Assembly: GCF_032163395.1 (NCBI RefSeq)
Contig: NZ_CP119968.1
Span: 4,490,001 to 4,554,000, forward strand
From: Gloeocapsopsis dulcis
GTDB taxonomy: Bacteria; Cyanobacteriota; Cyanobacteriia; Cyanobacteriales; Chroococcidiopsidaceae
DNA length: 64,000 bases
Direction of reading: 5' to 3'
Each line of letters opens with the position of its first letter. Positions within the stretch are counted from its first letter, which is position 1. Both the position numbers and the translations under genes were made by a program. The notes below the pieces were generated by a model. It searched no databases and was not told the DNA's origin. It saw nothing but the letters and a program-made list of their open reading frames with translations. Shown piece by piece: positions 57,941 through 64,000 of this stretch.

Positions 57941-59335
57941 ATGAATTTTTCCTTTGAAAGCTTGGGTCTTTCAGAAGCACGTATTAGACATTTAGAAAAA
58001 ATTGGATTTACAACAGCGACAAATATTCAAGCGCAAGCGATTCCCCACTTACTAGCAGGGCGCGATGTTGTGGGACAATCTCAAACTGGTACCGGAAAAA
58101 CAGCCGCATTTTCTTTGCCAATTCTAGAGCGCATCGATCCCAACCAAAGATCAGTGCAGGCTTTGATCCTGACACCAACACGAGAGTTAGCGGTGCAGGT
58201 AAGAGAAGCGATTTCAAGCTTTGTTGGCGATCAAAACGTCCGTGTAGCAGCAATTTATGGTGGTCAATCAATTGACCGACAAATGTTGCAATTAAAGCGT
58301 GGCGTCCAAATTGTTGTCGGTACACCTGGACGAGTCATTGATCTCATCAACCGAGGTAGCTTACAGCTTAATCAAATCAATTGGATGGTATTAGATGAAG
58401 CCGATGAAATGCTGAGCATGGGCTTTATTGACGACGTTGAAAGGATTTTACAAACTGCACCGACGGAACGGCAAACAGCGTTGTTCTCCGCAACGATGCC
58501 ATCAACAATTCGGCAATTAGTAACGAAGTTTTTGCGATCGCCTGTAACAGTAACAGTCGAACAACCAAAAGCTGCACCAACACGAATTAATCAAGTCGCT
58601 TACTTAGTTCCGCGCCATTGGAGTAAAGCACGGGCGTTGCAACCTATTTTGGCGCTTGAAGATCCGGAATCAGCTTTAATCTTTGTGCGCACCAGAAAGA
58701 CAGCTGCTGAACTAACGAATCAATTACAAGCAGCCGGTTACAGTGCAGATGAGTACCACGGCGATCTCACTCAGCAAGCGCGAGAAAGACTGTTAATGCG
58801 CTTCCGTAATAAGCAAGTGCGCTGGGTAATTGCCACTGATATTGCGGCGCGTGGTTTGGATGTAGAAGATTTGACGCACGTCATCAACTACGACTTACCC
58901 GATAGTGTCGAAACGTATGTGCACCGCATTGGACGTACTGGACGTGCAGGTAAAGAAGGAACTGCGATTTCGTTGGTACAACCATTTGAACGACGCAAGC
59001 AGCAACTAATCGAACGTCACGTTCGCCAGAGTTGGAAGGTGCTTTCGATTCCTACAAGAGCACAAATTGAAGCACGTCATCTCGAAAAACTGCAACGTCA
59101 AGTGCAAGAGGTACTTTCTGGAGAACGTTTAGCTTCGTTCTTACCAATTGTGCGCGATTTAAGTAATGAATACGACGTACACGCGATCGCTGCAGCAGCA
59201 CTACAGATGGCGTACGATTCGAGTCGTCCCGCTTGGATGCAGTCAGAAGCCGCAACAATGGAACCTGAAAAATCATCGGCACCCAAACCAGTTTTGCGTT
59301 CACCGCGATCGCAATCAGTATCGAAAAACAGCTAA
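57941..59335 (+). CDS. DEAD-box RNA helicase
   Basis: 464 residues with all core motifs: Q motif (GFTTATNIQAQAIP), SQTGTGKTAAF (I), PTRELAVQV (Ia), TPGRVIDL (Ib), VLDEADEML (II), FSATMP (III), ATDIAARGLDVEDLTHVINY (V) and HRIGRTGRAG (VI). The C-terminal ~120 residues form an extension ending in a basic, Ser/Pro-rich tail. It is of the DeaD/CshA/CrhR type that unwinds RNA duplexes, often in cold or redox stress. I do not assign crhR because the N-terminus differs from what I know of that protein. AGGAG precedes the ATG. Confidence 0.94.
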   Translation: MNFSFESLGLSEARIRHLEKIGFTTATNIQAQAIPHLLAGRDVVGQSQTGTGKTAAFSLPILERIDPNQRSVQALILTPTRELAVQVREAISSFVGDQNVRVAAIYGGQSIDRQMLQLKRGVQIVVGTPGRVIDLINRGSLQLNQINWMVLDEADEMLSMGFIDDVERILQTAPTERQTALFSATMPSTIRQLVTKFLRSPVTVTVEQPKAAPTRINQVAYLVPRHWSKARALQPILALEDPESALIFVRTRKTAAELTNQLQAAGYSADEYHGDLTQQARERLLMRFRNKQVRWVIATDIAARGLDVEDLTHVINYDLPDSVETYVHRIGRTGRAGKEGTAISLVQPFERRKQQLIERHVRQSWKVLSIPTRAQIEARHLEKLQRQVQEVLSGERLASFLPIVRDLSNEYDVHAIAAAALQMAYDSSRPAWMQSEAATMEPEKSSAPKPVLRSPRSQSVSKNS

Positions 59336-59388
59336 ATTCTAGTAAATCTGAGGAATTAGCTTTTTGACTTGTTTACTATAGTCTGGGT

Positions 59389-59421
59389 AATCTGGATACT
59401 TCTGGGTTAGCCAGATTTTTT
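59389..59421 (+). terminator. Terminator of the DEAD-box helicase gene
   Basis: AATCTGG, a 15-base loop, CCAGATT and then TTTTTC, beginning 54 bases after the stop codon. The stem is modest but the T-run is good. Confidence 0.65.
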
Positions 59422-59449
59422 CTTTGTTGAAGAGGCTGTCTGGAGATTG

Positions 59450-59974
59450 TTAAATTCCCACAGTTTTGACATAAGTTATAGCTAGCGGGGTTAACCGTTG
59501 TTCTAATTCTGTCACGATCGCGCGATCGCTTTCACTCCAAACTCTGGGTTTGCCAAAAATACACGGCTGTAAAATTCCCCACAATAGGTTATCTTGACAC
59601 AGATGCGCGTGAATTAAGGCGCGATGACCAAAATGTTTGCGTTCAAATCCTAAATTAACAACTTCAGGATTTGCAGTTTCGACATCTTCTACATAAACTG
59701 AAGGTTTAGCTTGTAATGCTGCTGAAAATAAAGGATCTTCTGCGGCTAATGATTTCGGTTCTTCACTCCACTCTGAATCTGTAACAGCAGGTATTTCTGC
59801 ACTTCGTTGCCAACAGTATGCTACTTTCCCATTTTTATTATAGGGATTACGCAGATACAGAAAGCACCGATCCGTTTGTAGCACGTTACATAACGCGGGT
59901 AACAAGGCATGAAAAATTGCATCAGGTTCGCTATGAGAAGCAAAAACATTTTCTAAAGCTTCAGGTAATTGCAT
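59450..59974 (-). CDS. GAF domain protein
   Basis: 174 residues forming one GAF domain (LCNVLQTDRCFLYLRNP ... RALIHAHLCQDNLLWGILQP). There is no output domain, and the usual chromophore cysteine of phytochrome-type GAFs is not in its expected place, although AHLCQDNLLWG contains a cysteine. It may be a stand-alone small-molecule or protein-interaction sensor. It reads leftward, converging on the helicase gene. Confidence 0.83.
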   Translation of the reverse strand: MQLPEALENVFASHSEPDAIFHALLPALCNVLQTDRCFLYLRNPYNKNGKVAYCWQRSAEIPAVTDSEWSEEPKSLAAEDPLFSAALQAKPSVYVEDVETANPEVVNLGFERKHFGHRALIHAHLCQDNLLWGILQPCIFGKPRVWSESDRAIVTELEQRLTPLAITYVKTVGI

Positions 59975-60186
59975 TGAAATTAAAACTTCACTAAGAACGT
60001 CACACCAATTGCATCATAAAAGGTATTTAAATCTTTAAATCGAGCGTAGCAACCACTGTTTAGCCATAGTATGACATTACCACCTACGGCATTTCACTTT
60101 TTCTCAGTAAAAACTGTACCTTCCGCCTAAATCATTACTCTTTCAGCATCACCCTTAATTGTGCCTGTCGCAAGTAACGGTTGCGT

Positions 60187-60999
60187 TCAGTGGCTGCCAG
60201 TTCTTCTCGATGTACCAAGGGTTTCACTCAATCCGCTGCAACACAGATGTTCAACGGCGTATGGTTGCGACAGGGAAGGTCTCTCAGTTTGCATGATCAC
60301 TTGTTCAATTGCCTGACGATATTGAGTGTCTGACCTAAAAGCAAATGTAATCGTTGGATCTAGAAATGGCGGGTTTGCCATCTCTACGCGCACATTTGGA
60401 GTAATACCAGCACCGAGGATTTCATGACCACTTGATGTATTTGCTCGTCCAATTGTCACAGCAACCACTGCACCATCTGTAAGGGGCAAAAAGTTATGAA
60501 TTAATCCTTTGCCAAACGTTGGCATCCCTACGACTACAGCCCGTTCAGAATCTTTCAGGGTTCCAGCAAGCCACTCTGCTGTGCTGGCTGTTCCTTGATT
60601 CACAAGTACTACGAACGGTTTGTTCGTAATTTGAGCCTCAGTAGAGCGGAGTTCAGTTGTGCCCGTTCGCTCTACTGATGTACCGATTAGCGCTTCTCCC
60701 AAGAAGAATCCCGCAAGTTCCTGAAGCGCAGCAACAGATCTGCCTGGATTGTTGCGTAAGTCTAACACAAAGCCATCAGCACCTTGAAACCGCTCAAGCG
60801 CCTCTTTCACCTGCTGAGGGGATGATAATGTGAACTGATGCAGAATGATATATCCAATTTGCCGTCCTTCCCAGGTTGTTTCTAACCTTGCCTGAACTGC
60901 TGGGACAGGTCTAATTTTCCTACGAGTCAGCACTACACGAAACGTTGAATTATAACTTGCACTCACGGAGCGTAGCAGATTATAGAGGTACAAAAACAA
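60187..60999 (-). pseudogene. N-terminally truncated S41 (CtpA-like) protease
   Basis: The open frame starts at a TTG with no real start. It opens in the end of a PDZ domain (FRVVLTRRKIRPVPAVQARL), then gives the S41 catalytic domain: IGYIILHQF, GFVLDLRNNPG, nucleophile Ser in NQGTASTAEWLAG and catalytic Lys in PTFGKGLIHNF. The signal peptide, N-terminal domain and most of the PDZ (about 170 residues of a typical 420) are missing, and I find none of them in the 125 bases upstream. The catalytic dyad is intact. It is most likely a broken remnant of a carboxyl-terminal processing protease. Confidence 0.75.
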
Positions 61000-61125
61000 C
61001 TTAGCGCCTCAATGCCAATTAAAGTATTGATAATCAGTGACTCATTACAACGTTCCTGTTGAGCGGCTACCATTAACCTTTTCAACACAACTAGCATCTC
61101 TTAGCAATCCGCTCCAACAAGGTCA

Positions 61126-62124
61126 TTATGGGGCGCTACTGCAATGCACTTTTTCAACAACTTGACGAATTGCATCAATGACTAATTCTGGTTTATCGAG
61201 TTGGATGGCATGTCCACTGTCATGAGCAATAATGTAAATACCTTGAGATGACTGATTCGCTAGATCCGCATGTAACTTTTGTAGTTTCTCAAGCACCTCT
61301 TGTGTTATGTCAAAGTCTGGCTTTCCAGCCGATAAGACAATGAGAGGAATCTCAGGAAATGGTTTTATCTGGCGTATCTGTTCAACCTGGTTCATGCTGA
61401 GTGATACCGCAGCCGATTCTTGAGCAAAGGTTTGCCCAAACTGAGTTTGAGAATACAGTGCTTTTGCAAGCGATCGCATTGAAGGTGGAAATTTTTGAAA
61501 TAAACCAGCCGCCATCGGCAAAGAATCTAGAGTGACGAGTAATCGAAGCAGACCGATACGCCCTATGATGGGCACCACCTGAGTTAACAGTCCTTCAAGC
61601 CGTTTGTTCAATTCAACCCATTCAGTGGGTGTCTCCTCGTACATTCTCTCATGAGCGATATCTACTAACACCATTCCAACCACTTCTTCTGGATAGTGAT
61701 AGGCAAATAAACGGGTAGATAAGCCACTTGAAGACATCCCTACTAACACATAGGGCGGCTCAATTTCAGTTGCTTTCAAAAGTTGCCGTAGCTCATTTAC
61801 GGCTTGCTCAGCGGTGCGTGGTGCTGAACTTGCATCACTCCAGCCATAGCCTGCTCGATCGTAGGTCAAGATGCTTGTAAACTTAGCGACTTCAGGCTGC
61901 ACTAGTTGCCAATCTAGGTGGGTGCCTCCGGTGCCACTATCGACAATGACTGTTGGGTGTCCTTTACCCATCATGTGATAGTGCCAATTTTTACCGTTGA
62001 TTTCAATTAATTTTCCAGTTGGCAGAAACCTGCGGCGATCGCGGCTTGTGGCAAGTGCTTGATAAATTGCTCCAAACCCGACTACTCCCATCAATACCCC
62101 AAGGGGTGCAACGAGCCATAGCAT
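61126..62124 (-). CDS. Alpha/beta hydrolase
   Basis: 332 residues. A hydrophobic N-terminal helix (LWLVAPLGVLMGVVGFGAIY) suggests membrane anchoring. The alpha/beta-hydrolase core has TVIVDSGTGGTHLDW (oxyanion region), the nucleophile elbow LVGMSSSGLSTRLFAYHYPE, an acid region near VLSAGKPDFD and the histidine in HDSGHAIQLDKPELV. The elbow reads G-M-S-S-S instead of G-x-S-x-G, with the serine in place. The ATG is preceded by AGGA and lies 18 bases downstream of the S41 lipoprotein gene's stop, so the two are probably one transcript. The substrate is unknown. Confidence 0.83.
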   Translation of the reverse strand: MLWLVAPLGVLMGVVGFGAIYQALATSRDRRRFLPTGKLIEINGKNWHYHMMGKGHPTVIVDSGTGGTHLDWQLVQPEVAKFTSILTYDRAGYGWSDASSAPRTAEQAVNELRQLLKATEIEPPYVLVGMSSSGLSTRLFAYHYPEEVVGMVLVDIAHERMYEETPTEWVELNKRLEGLLTQVVPIIGRIGLLRLLVTLDSLPMAAGLFQKFPPSMRSLAKALYSQTQFGQTFAQESAAVSLSMNQVEQIRQIKPFPEIPLIVLSAGKPDFDITQEVLEKLQKLHADLANQSSQGIYIIAHDSGHAIQLDKPELVIDAIRQVVEKVHCSSAP

Positions 62125-62142
62125 TCGGTTGAGTCCTCAAAT

Positions 62143-63315
62143 TTACATATAGTTGTGAACGATTTCCACTGCTTGTTCAAAACAGCGATCGCCACTATTG
62201 TCACATGTAGCAATTTCAATATCTGGCTGCACCCCCTTGCCTTCGATCGCATTGTCCTCAGGTGAAACGGTGTAAGCGATCGGAGCAAGAATGATAAATC
62301 CTTGCCATCTCAGCTTAAAAACCCCTCCCCCTAATACTGAACCACTGGTGCGAACCCCCAAGATTTGAGCAGATCCATGATCTTGTACCGCTGCTGCAAA
62401 GACTTCGCAGGCAGATCCACATTGGTGATCAACCAGCACAAAGTGGGGTCTTGGATCAGTCCTGGCTTCAAATCGCGTTCGATATTCAATGAAGTTCTTC
62501 TCCTGAGTTAACTTGATTTCAGCAAGACCAATATTTTTCACAGAATCATCAAAATACCCCCGAAAAATATAGGGTTCCTGCATGCCAATTCCATCTCGAG
62601 TTCGTTCTATTGCAAACACTTTATCAGGACCAATGATGTCTTCAATCAAATAACTAATGGCAGATTGAACACCGCCACCATTCCCACGTAGATCGATAAG
62701 AATTGCTTTCGCTTGGGAAAGTTCAGCTTTCGCTTGCTCAACTGCATGTCTGGTAATTTGAGGCGTAACAAAACTTTTGACCCGCAAAATTCCAACTTGA
62801 TTGCTTACCTGTGCTGAAACGATATTCGTTTCAATTGTTGATGGAGATTCCTGAGTAAATAGACGAAACAGTTGTTCGCCCTCCACCGGATCGAATACTC
62901 TCACATGAGAGATAGCAAGCTTCTCTAAATATTGGTTTGTGAGTTGTGTTAACTCTGCTCTTGACCAGCTTGATTTCGTATCAACTTCAGCAATTAATTC
63001 CTTCAGGTTTTGTTCTCGAAGTTCCTTCTTAAAGGTCGGATTAAAAATATTGGCATCCAGTTTTTGATAAACATCATTGACAAACACTTTGGCTTCTGCG
63101 GAAGAAACAGGATCTGTACCGCTTAGCGTTGATGAGGTAAACCAGTCTAATGAAAGGTCTTCCTCTGTTTCCTGAGAAATGGGAGATTGAAATGAAGGAT
63201 CTGATGACTGCCAAGGGGTAAATCTACTACCCGTGCAGCTTACTAGGTAGAGCAGTATTGCTGTCGCTACAGCAAAAAATACCATCCTTATCCATTTAAC
63301 TCGCCTTGATTGCAT
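62143..63315 (-). CDS. S41-family protein, lipoprotein, without the usual catalytic lysine
   Basis: 390 residues from the ATG at 63315; an open frame continues to 63423 but the signal peptide starts here. A lipobox (LYLVSCTGS) follows a basic, hydrophobic leader. The C-terminal S41 domain has ILIDLRGNGGGVQSAISYL, VDHQCGSACEVFAAAV (nucleophile serine) and RTSGSVLGGG, where the lysine of the Ser-Lys dyad (usually FGKG) is serine. A histidine in LAISHVRVFDPVE could instead form a Ser-His site as in nisin-resistance-type S41 proteins. It is closely related to the gene that follows it to the right (63347-64000). Confidence 0.83.
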   Translation of the reverse strand: MQSRRVKWIRMVFFAVATAILLYLVSCTGSRFTPWQSSDPSFQSPISQETEEDLSLDWFTSSTLSGTDPVSSAEAKVFVNDVYQKLDANIFNPTFKKELREQNLKELIAEVDTKSSWSRAELTQLTNQYLEKLAISHVRVFDPVEGEQLFRLFTQESPSTIETNIVSAQVSNQVGILRVKSFVTPQITRHAVEQAKAELSQAKAILIDLRGNGGGVQSAISYLIEDIIGPDKVFAIERTRDGIGMQEPYIFRGYFDDSVKNIGLAEIKLTQEKNFIEYRTRFEARTDPRPHFVLVDHQCGSACEVFAAAVQDHGSAQILGVRTSGSVLGGGVFKLRWQGFIILAPIAYTVSPEDNAIEGKGVQPDIEIATCDNSGDRCFEQAVEIVHNYM

Positions 63316-63346
63316 CTTCAAGTATTCCTTGATCGGAGGGTGGTTG

Positions 63347-64000
63347 TCATATTGCCGCATCTGCAATTGCGATCGCCTTTTCCAGACATTGGTTCCCACC
63401 GTTTGCACATTCAGGAATTTCAATATCGGGTTGAACTCCTACTCCCTCAATCATGTGTCCTTTGGGTAAGATAACCTGAACTGTTGGGGCAATTAGGGCA
63501 AAGCCTTGCCATCTTAATCTGAATGCATCGCCTCCCAAAAGGGCACCCATTGTCCGGACTCCCAAAATTTTGGCAGAGCCATAGTCTTTGATAATTCCTG
63601 CAAACAAATCGCACGCTGATCCGCACTGCTCATCAACCAGAATAAAGTGAGGTCTTGGATCGACCTGGGCTTCCAACCGTGTCCGCCACTCGATGTAGGA
63701 ATAGGTTTGTGAAAGCTCAATTTCTGCCTTGGCTTCTGCGTTGATAGCATCATCAAAATACCCTCGAAAAACATAGGGTTCTCGCGCCTGTAGACCCTCG
63801 CGAGTTCTATCTCTCGACAGTACTTTGTCAGGTCCAATGATATCCTCAACCAGATAACTAATGCTTGACCCAAAACCTCCCCCATTCCCGCGAACATCAA
63901 TGAGAATGACTTGGGCTTGAGCCAGTTGAGCCTTGGCTCGATCAAGTTCTGCCTTGGTAATGAGAGGAACAATGAAGCTTTCGACTCGGAGAATTCCGAC
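63347..64000 (-). CDS. Second S41-family paralogue (5' end beyond the window)
   Basis: The frame is open from its stop at 63347 to the window edge, 217 codons, with the N-terminus missing. It parallels the neighbouring S41 gene: VGILRVESFIVPLITKAELD, VILIDVRGNGGGFGSSISYL, REPYVFRGYFDDAIN, VDEQCGSACDLFAGII and RTMGALLGGDAFRL. The catalytic lysine position (FGKG in CtpA) is alanine here, so like its neighbour it lacks a Ser-Lys dyad. The two genes lie 31 bases apart in the same orientation, a tandem duplication. Confidence 0.85.
   Translation of the reverse strand, partial: VGILRVESFIVPLITKAELDRAKAQLAQAQVILIDVRGNGGGFGSSISYLVEDIIGPDKVLSRDRTREGLQAREPYVFRGYFDDAINAEAKAEIELSQTYSYIEWRTRLEAQVDPRPHFILVDEQCGSACDLFAGIIKDYGSAKILGVRTMGALLGGDAFRLRWQGFALIAPTVQVILPKGHMIEGVGVQPDIEIPECANGGNQCLEKAIAIADAAI

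Follow-up and report, generated by a model that had tools for sequence, protein, structure and literature searches.

The locus analyzed here raises the question of whether two adjacent S41 proteins without the catalytic lysine of CtpA/Prc proteins are decayed peptidases or belong to another kind of S41, and which neighboring genes go with them. The two genes, here called A and B, lie at the end of the window, by which we mean the whole stretch of 64,000 nucleotides that was analyzed (bases 4490001-4554000 of contig 1 in a 5.6-Mb genome). The contig continues past the window and was read on as L007; gene A runs off the window, and the region of its catalytic His and the divergent AraC-type gene lie beyond position 64000. 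Feature coordinates are collected in Table 1.

Genes A and B encode S41 proteins without the CtpA lysine

Gene B starts 31 bases downstream of the gene A stop codon, and the encoded proteins are 53% identical. The longest mechanical ORF of gene B (62143-63423) opens with a TTG inside gene A; this start was rejected, and the ATG at the 63315 end gives a lipoprotein signal. Two minus-strand ORFs of 152 and 161 amino acids ending at 63514 were also rejected, as they are gene A in another frame. In a Pfam scan, PF03572 was the sole domain above cut-off in both proteins (76.3 bits for A and 89.3 bits for B, with a curated cut-off of 24), which assigns them to peptidase family S41. Each carries a lipobox as judged by eye, the Cys column of which is invariant in 12/12 aligned family members, and A and B appear to be S41-fold lipoproteins of the cell envelope. 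Purifying selection acts on each of the two genes, with dN/dS values of 0.23 (A) and 0.30 (B) when the own genome is compared with G099, a genome from a different family.

Table 1. Positions of the genes, codons, and intergenic region discussed in the text (window numbering; window-equivalent numbers continue the count along L007)
Feature	Position	Strand	Remarks
Truncated CtpA-type S41 relic	60187..60999	-	TFGKG lysine present
Alpha/beta hydrolase gene	61126..62124	-	PF12697, E 3.9e-11; downstream of gene B, not a conserved partner
S41 gene B, from likely ATG	62143..63315	-	390 aa; lipobox LVSC; PF03572, E 2.7e-25
Conserved Glu codon E358, gene B	62242..62244	-	Codon read and alignment
Ser codon at CtpA-lysine position (326), gene B	62338..62340	-	Codon read and column counts
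Nucleophile Ser codon S301, gene B (CGSAC)	62413..62415	-	Codon read and alignment
Ser-His codons S136-H137, gene B	62905..62910	-	Proposed general base and its neighbor; aligned with SH of tricorn homologues
S41 gene A, C-terminal part in window	63347..64000	-	PF03572, E 2.6e-21
S41 gene A, whole	window-equivalent 63347-64504 = L007:7347-8504		385 aa; lipobox LTSC
Conserved Glu codon, gene A (MIEGVG)	63446..63448	-	Codon read and column counts
Ala codon at CtpA-lysine position, gene A	63542..63544	-	Codon read and column counts
Nucleophile Ser codon, gene A (CGSAC)	63617..63619	-	Codon read and alignment
AraC/S41 intergenic region, own locus	window-equivalent 64505-64654 = L007:8505-8654		Conserved block common to ten loci
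AraC-type gene, partner of S41-A	window-equivalent 64655-65530 = L007:8655-9530	divergent from A	Beyond the window

The preliminary description of this DNA had stated that both proteins keep the nucleophile Ser (CGSACE and CGSACD) and that Ser or Ala occupies the catalytic-lysine position (GVRTSGSV and GVRTMGAL). Reading the codons confirmed this. A sequencing error at these codons, raised there as an objection, can be set aside: since the lysine column holds Ser in 2 and Ala in 10 of the 12 family members, the missing lysine is not a local artifact. The truncated S41 relic at 60187, which had been cited for internal comparison, indeed keeps the lysine. The relic resembles a CtpA-type protein over the C-terminal half alone (71% identity to residues 222-444 of the L079 frame, which has 463 residues). 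The closest of six proteins compared with the relic (71%) is encoded by a full-length gene in G020, approximately 24 kb from the S41-A gene of that genome.

Active-site columns resemble those of tricorn-type S41 proteins

The family alignment comprised 12 proteins, ten A-type and two B-type, from ten loci, and residues are numbered according to gene B (window:62143-63315:-). S136, H137, S301, and E358 are invariant in 12/12 proteins, and the nucleophile is embedded in CGS[AS]C[DE] in each of them. Lysine is invariant at just four positions (K76, K96, K196, and K232), none of which is near position 326 in the sequence.

These columns were compared with four sets of proteins from cyanobacterial genomes: 26 CtpA-type proteins, 4 tricorn homologues, 8 short tricorn-core-like proteins, and 12 IRBP-like proteins. 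The CtpA-type set consisted of L001-L003 and L057-L079, with omission of the lower-scoring L080-L082 and of L004-L006 (the relic and the pair); the counts for the other sets took in all 24 loci collected for them. In the CtpA-type set, the Ser-His columns hold Pro (25 of 26) and Tyr or Phe (24), the nucleophile column holds Ser (26), the lysine column, about 25 residues after the Ser, holds Lys (25), and the Glu column holds Asn or Ser (25); one row has odd letters at three columns, maybe from a wrongly picked frame. The tricorn homologues have Ser (3 of 4) and His (4) in the Ser-His columns, the nucleophile Ser (4), Gly at the lysine column (4), and Glu (4). In the tricorn-core-like proteins, Ser, His, the nucleophile Ser, Ala at the lysine column, and Glu are each found in 8/8. 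The IRBP-like proteins (n = 12) have Asp at the Ser column (12), His (7), the nucleophile Ser (11), Gly at the lysine column (10), and Glu (8).

In the profile alignments, which are thin (Neff about 1.8 to 2.8), all four Ser-His, Ser, and Glu positions of the tricorn type are present in 12/12 family members, and both groups have a small residue at the lysine position, Gly or Ala in the tricorn type. The family of the pair thus appears to sit with the tricorn type, and its catalytic lysine does not look lost; it would be absent because the family is of the Ser-His-Glu kind of S41. Decay of a lysine site was rejected on the grounds that Ser-His and Glu are invariant and fall in the His and Glu columns of tricorn-type S41. 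In line with this, the proposal in the preliminary description that the pair could use a Ser-His site stands as far as H137 is concerned, which aligns with the tricorn-type His, and since E358 aligns with the tricorn-type Glu, the nearest mechanism would be that of tricorn and CPAF (Ser-His-Glu) rather than the dyad of NSR-type proteins.

Furthermore, C299, C303, C371, and C378 are invariant in the family alignment (n = 12), as is the lipobox Cys, and C299 and C303 flank the nucleophile (CGSxC). Among the 50 relatives compared, Cys was found at columns 299, 303, and 378 in none and at column 371 in one.

Comparison with known S41 systems

Tricorn has an active-site tetrad of Ser-His, Ser, and Glu, and tricorn and tricorn-core-like S41 proteins belong to MEROPS S41B. 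They are like the pair in the Ser-His, nucleophile Ser, and Glu columns and in having no catalytic lysine. The pair differs from tricorn in having no PDZ segment, in its lipobox, in the CGSxC motif with two further Cys residues, in its AraC neighbor, and in size, with about 363 residues after the lipobox Cys versus >1000 residues in full tricorn homologues. The further tricorn domains (propellers, Tricorn_C1, and PDZ) were not found above cut-off in A or B in the Pfam scan. Full-size tricorn homologues (>1000 residues) are present in cyanobacteria (L033-L036).

The CPAF protein of Chlamydia (3dor) has the Ser-His-Glu triad that is proposed for the pair, given as His105-Ser499-Glu558 in PMC8787135, where the Ser-to-Glu spacing corresponds to 59 residues compared with 57 in the pair. 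In both CPAF and the pair, RTxGA replaces TFGKG. The sequence match between them is local only, and with the NCBIfam model of CPAF, NF033424, A and B scored 31.5 and 45.2 bits, below the cut-off of 250. NSR is likewise an S41 protein with an active-site Ser and His, and the PDB title of SaNSR (4y68) calls it a lipoprotein. In PMC4698656, which gives 4y68 as the SaNSR deposition, the active site (Ser236-His98) is presented as a dyad without a neighboring Lys or Asp, whereas the family of the pair has an invariant Glu. The NSR motif TASSAEM is absent from all 12 family proteins, which have CGS[AS]C[DE] instead.

The C-terminal S41 core is common to the pair and CtpA/Prc proteins (S41A), which differ from each other in the lysine, the PDZ domain, and the residue types at the His and Glu columns. 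The Pfam scan detected no PDZ domain in A or B at E 0.1; about 38 residues lie between His137 and the first core strand, and a long gap was opened there against L001. With TIGR00225 (CtpA/Prc), A and B reached 49.3 and 68.1 bits, below the cut-off of 218.6.

Two structure predictions, based on eight sequences each, gave weak models with a mean pLDDT of 56.6 (gene B) and 48.8, and the better one (gene B) was used for fold identity only, not for distances. In a Foldseek search with this model, 4y68 had the highest TM score among the 50 rows listed (0.50 by query, 0.61 by target), and an IRBP entry was first by E-value among the rows listed. With VIA-align, the first 43 of the best 50 rows were of S41 type (Z 15.3 to 9.4) and comprised CtpA, CtpB, Prc, IRBP, CPAF, tricorn, NSR, and other S41 entries, including two with no more specific title than "putative protease" or "putative peptidase." Tricorn (1k32) was found with Z 11.8 and an rmsd of 5.0 over 226 aligned residues, and CPAF (3dor) with Z 11.8 and an rmsd of 6.3 over 258. 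Since the models are weak, the proposed Ser-His-Glu geometry rests on the alignment, in which the His, Ser, and Glu columns match the tricorn type; the gene B model is too weak for measuring a CPAF-like triad.

Are A and B binding proteins?

Vertebrate IRBP is a retinoid carrier, and its modules are PDZ-less, as are A and B. Together with the partial retention of His (7/12) and Glu (8/12) in the IRBP-like set, this indicates that loss of catalysis does occur in the S41 fold. A and B could then be catalytically dead ligand binders that serve as surface binding proteins or as co-sensors of the AraC regulator, a reading with which the missing lysine agrees, and an IRBP chain ranked first by E-value whenever the PDB was searched by sequence. 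The IRBP-like set also scored best of the four sets in the profile comparison, and the IRBP N-terminal domain PF11918 gave no match in A or B at E 0.1. A domain used for binding only, however, would not need all of the Ser-His-Glu site residues, which the pair's family keeps without exception, and purifying selection acts on both genes. We consider this alternative unlikely, and the non-proteolytic binding domain suggested in the preliminary description is not favored.

An AraC-type gene adjoins gene A in all ten loci

An AraC-type gene of one family, identified by blastp to the own gene, divergently adjoins gene A in 10/10 distinct loci: the own locus, G099 (= L016), G020, G121, G189, G066 (= L019), Westiellopsis (L017), Fischerella (L018), Tolypothrix (L020), and Scytonema (L021). 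Gene B follows gene A in the own genome and G099 only (2/10 loci), and the other neighbors listed differ between loci, except in the closely related pair of Westiellopsis and Fischerella. HTH_18 is present in both AraC proteins scanned (n = 2; E 5e-24 and 6.9e-23), while in the effector half no Pfam domain was above cut-off, with Cupin_6 below it. The pairing of AraC with S41 was absent from the literature matches listed, as judged by title and start of the abstract.

The AraC-S41 intergenic region is 128 to 405 bases long across the loci and contains a block of roughly ATCAAAnGATTTTGATAAATTTCA-n-AAGAATCTGAAAGACA...TATCGATAATAGA. In this block, 36 of 75 columns are conserved in at least 9 of the 10 sequences versus at most 6 in 20 shuffles, a control that ignores relatedness. 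By eye, a -10-like GATAAT closes the block on the gene A side. We suggest that it is a putative binding site of an AraC activator.

The own AraC-type gene is interrupted in frame by a TAG at codon 207, and HTH_18 would start four codons further on (residue 211, taken from the G099 orthologue). Its homologues at the other nine loci are open over their full length. Because the TAG precedes the DNA-binding domain, the control of A and B is probably altered in the own genome; the TAG may also be a sequencing error.

The alpha/beta hydrolase gene is not a conserved neighbor

The preliminary description had proposed that the pair and the alpha/beta hydrolase encoded downstream may form one exported enzyme cluster, considered here as a degradation cluster. 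The 18-base spacing on which it relied is exact (62125-62142, same strand). Moreover, G099 has, after gene B (L024:6026-6127), a degenerate 33-codon frame that matches the start of the hydrolase with an alignment score of 28, versus at most 14 in 500 shuffles, and given this remnant the neighborhood may be older than the transfer between the own genome and G099 described below. Against such a cluster, no intact hydrolase ORF was found in the flanks read of the nine other S41 loci. Orthologues with 75 to 83% identity are present in G037, G020, and G121; in G020 and G121 the contigs that carry them are not those of S41-A, a gene that G037 lacks. The G037 hydrolase gene is flanked by other genes, and its DNA similarity to the own sequence ends at 62137, six bases from the gene B stop codon. 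A shared gene order in other cyanobacteria was found for the AraC-type gene and, in the flanks read, not for an intact hydrolase gene, and we regard the cluster as slightly less probable still than a binding function.

Most of the hydrolase gene (window 61049-61917) has a 97.7% identical copy of 869 bases at G000:C1:2613360-2614228, which is a recent duplication within the own genome. By eye, this copy adjoins transposase-like and LysR-like ORFs.

Distribution and transfer of the AraC-A-B block

The unit is rare, being found by protein searches in 6/194 and 6/388 genomes of the class (overlapping draws, the own genome included). These rarity figures rest on the protein searches and not on a profile search of the phylum, which returned 1/386 genomes (the own genome only) with at most five candidates scored per genome; with all candidates scored, the same profile recovered 5/5 known carriers. 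Of eight loci confirmed by tblastn, L022 and L023 were dropped, since they encode lysine-bearing CtpA-like proteins (SFGKG) that were caught via a shared short peptide. No family member was found in the plasmid collection, in the viral contigs, in G037 (sister species of the same genus), or in G440 (same family).

Despite their different families, the own genome and G099 share 90.4% DNA identity over 3568 bases (window-equivalent 62069-65636). The proportion of synonymous differences (pS) is 0.186 for A, 0.173 for B, and 0.268 for the AraC-type gene, compared with 0.808 for homoserine dehydrogenase and 0.794 for a putative petH (434 amino acids), two housekeeping genes named by eye. This DNA identity, and pS values of a fraction of the housekeeping level, indicate by sequence comparison that the AraC-A-B block was recently transferred between families.

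Colinearity of G037 with the own genome extends from 72000 to 66047 and breaks off at the latter position, and the helicase gene, the GAF-like gene, and the alpha/beta hydrolase gene sit on three other G037 contigs. The region is thus rearranged, and the draft G037 assembly cannot show one clean empty site. Consecutive genes of window 57941-62124 map to G037 contigs C28, C85, and C43; a fourth contig, C107, matches the far side of the block. A search for insertion-end repeats yielded short or gene-internal matches only.

In a tree rooted on distant long-branch outgroups, B falls outside all A proteins, with support of 96/99 for the A clade and 88/92 for the whole family. From this topology, A and B probably diverged before A spread among the genomes sampled.

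Proposed function and implications

We propose, with a probability of roughly two in three, that A and B are tricorn/CPAF-type Ser-His-Glu lipoproteins and that A is the core of a mobile AraC-regulated unit. The sequences give good support to a membrane-anchored, PDZ-less hydrolase of this type, and the constant gene order and the intergenic block speak for the link to the regulator. The Ser-His-Glu active site itself is already known from tricorn and CPAF; the pair is a variant without PDZ and with a lipobox. As inferred from conserved residues, the Ser of CGSxC would be the nucleophile in both proteins, the His of the N-terminal Ser-His pair would serve as the base, and the Glu of IEGxGV would orient this His. 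Since A and B have no PDZ domain, they would act on a short or unfolded substrate that enters the active-site cleft, rather than on the tagged C-termini of proteins, the targets of CtpA. Gene A would form a mobile two-gene unit with the divergent AraC-type regulator, which would recognize the conserved block between the two genes and most likely switch on gene A in response to a chemical cue. Gene B would be an older paralogue, with a position that would let it be transcribed in tandem with A.

That A and B are instead enzymes of the CtpA type, with a lysine from elsewhere in the protein at the active site, is highly improbable: the fold common to CtpA/CtpB and the pair would allow it, but the PDZ segment and the lysine column are absent, the His and Glu columns follow tricorn and not CtpA, and all four invariant lysines are distant from position 326 in the sequence.

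For the Ser-His-Glu lipoproteins proposed here, the degradation of an external peptide or a similar compound is a conceivable role, which we put forward tentatively. More speculative, and rather doubtful, is a redox-gated S41 hydrolase, in which the Cys residues of CGSxC and the C-terminal Cys pair would switch the site on or off via periplasmic disulfides, the whole being a mobile cassette for detoxification or peptide scavenging that includes its own AraC sensor-activator.

In summary, the absence of the lysine from an S41 protein can be the sign of a sub-type and not of decay, and the two can be distinguished by a simple rule based on Ser-His, Ser, and Glu. The analysis also defines a small, rare, and mobile cyanobacterial unit of an AraC regulator and a predicted PDZ-less lipoprotein hydrolase, the inducer and the substrate of which can be sought together. 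Finally, the CGSxC signature leads to a testable hypothesis of disulfide control.
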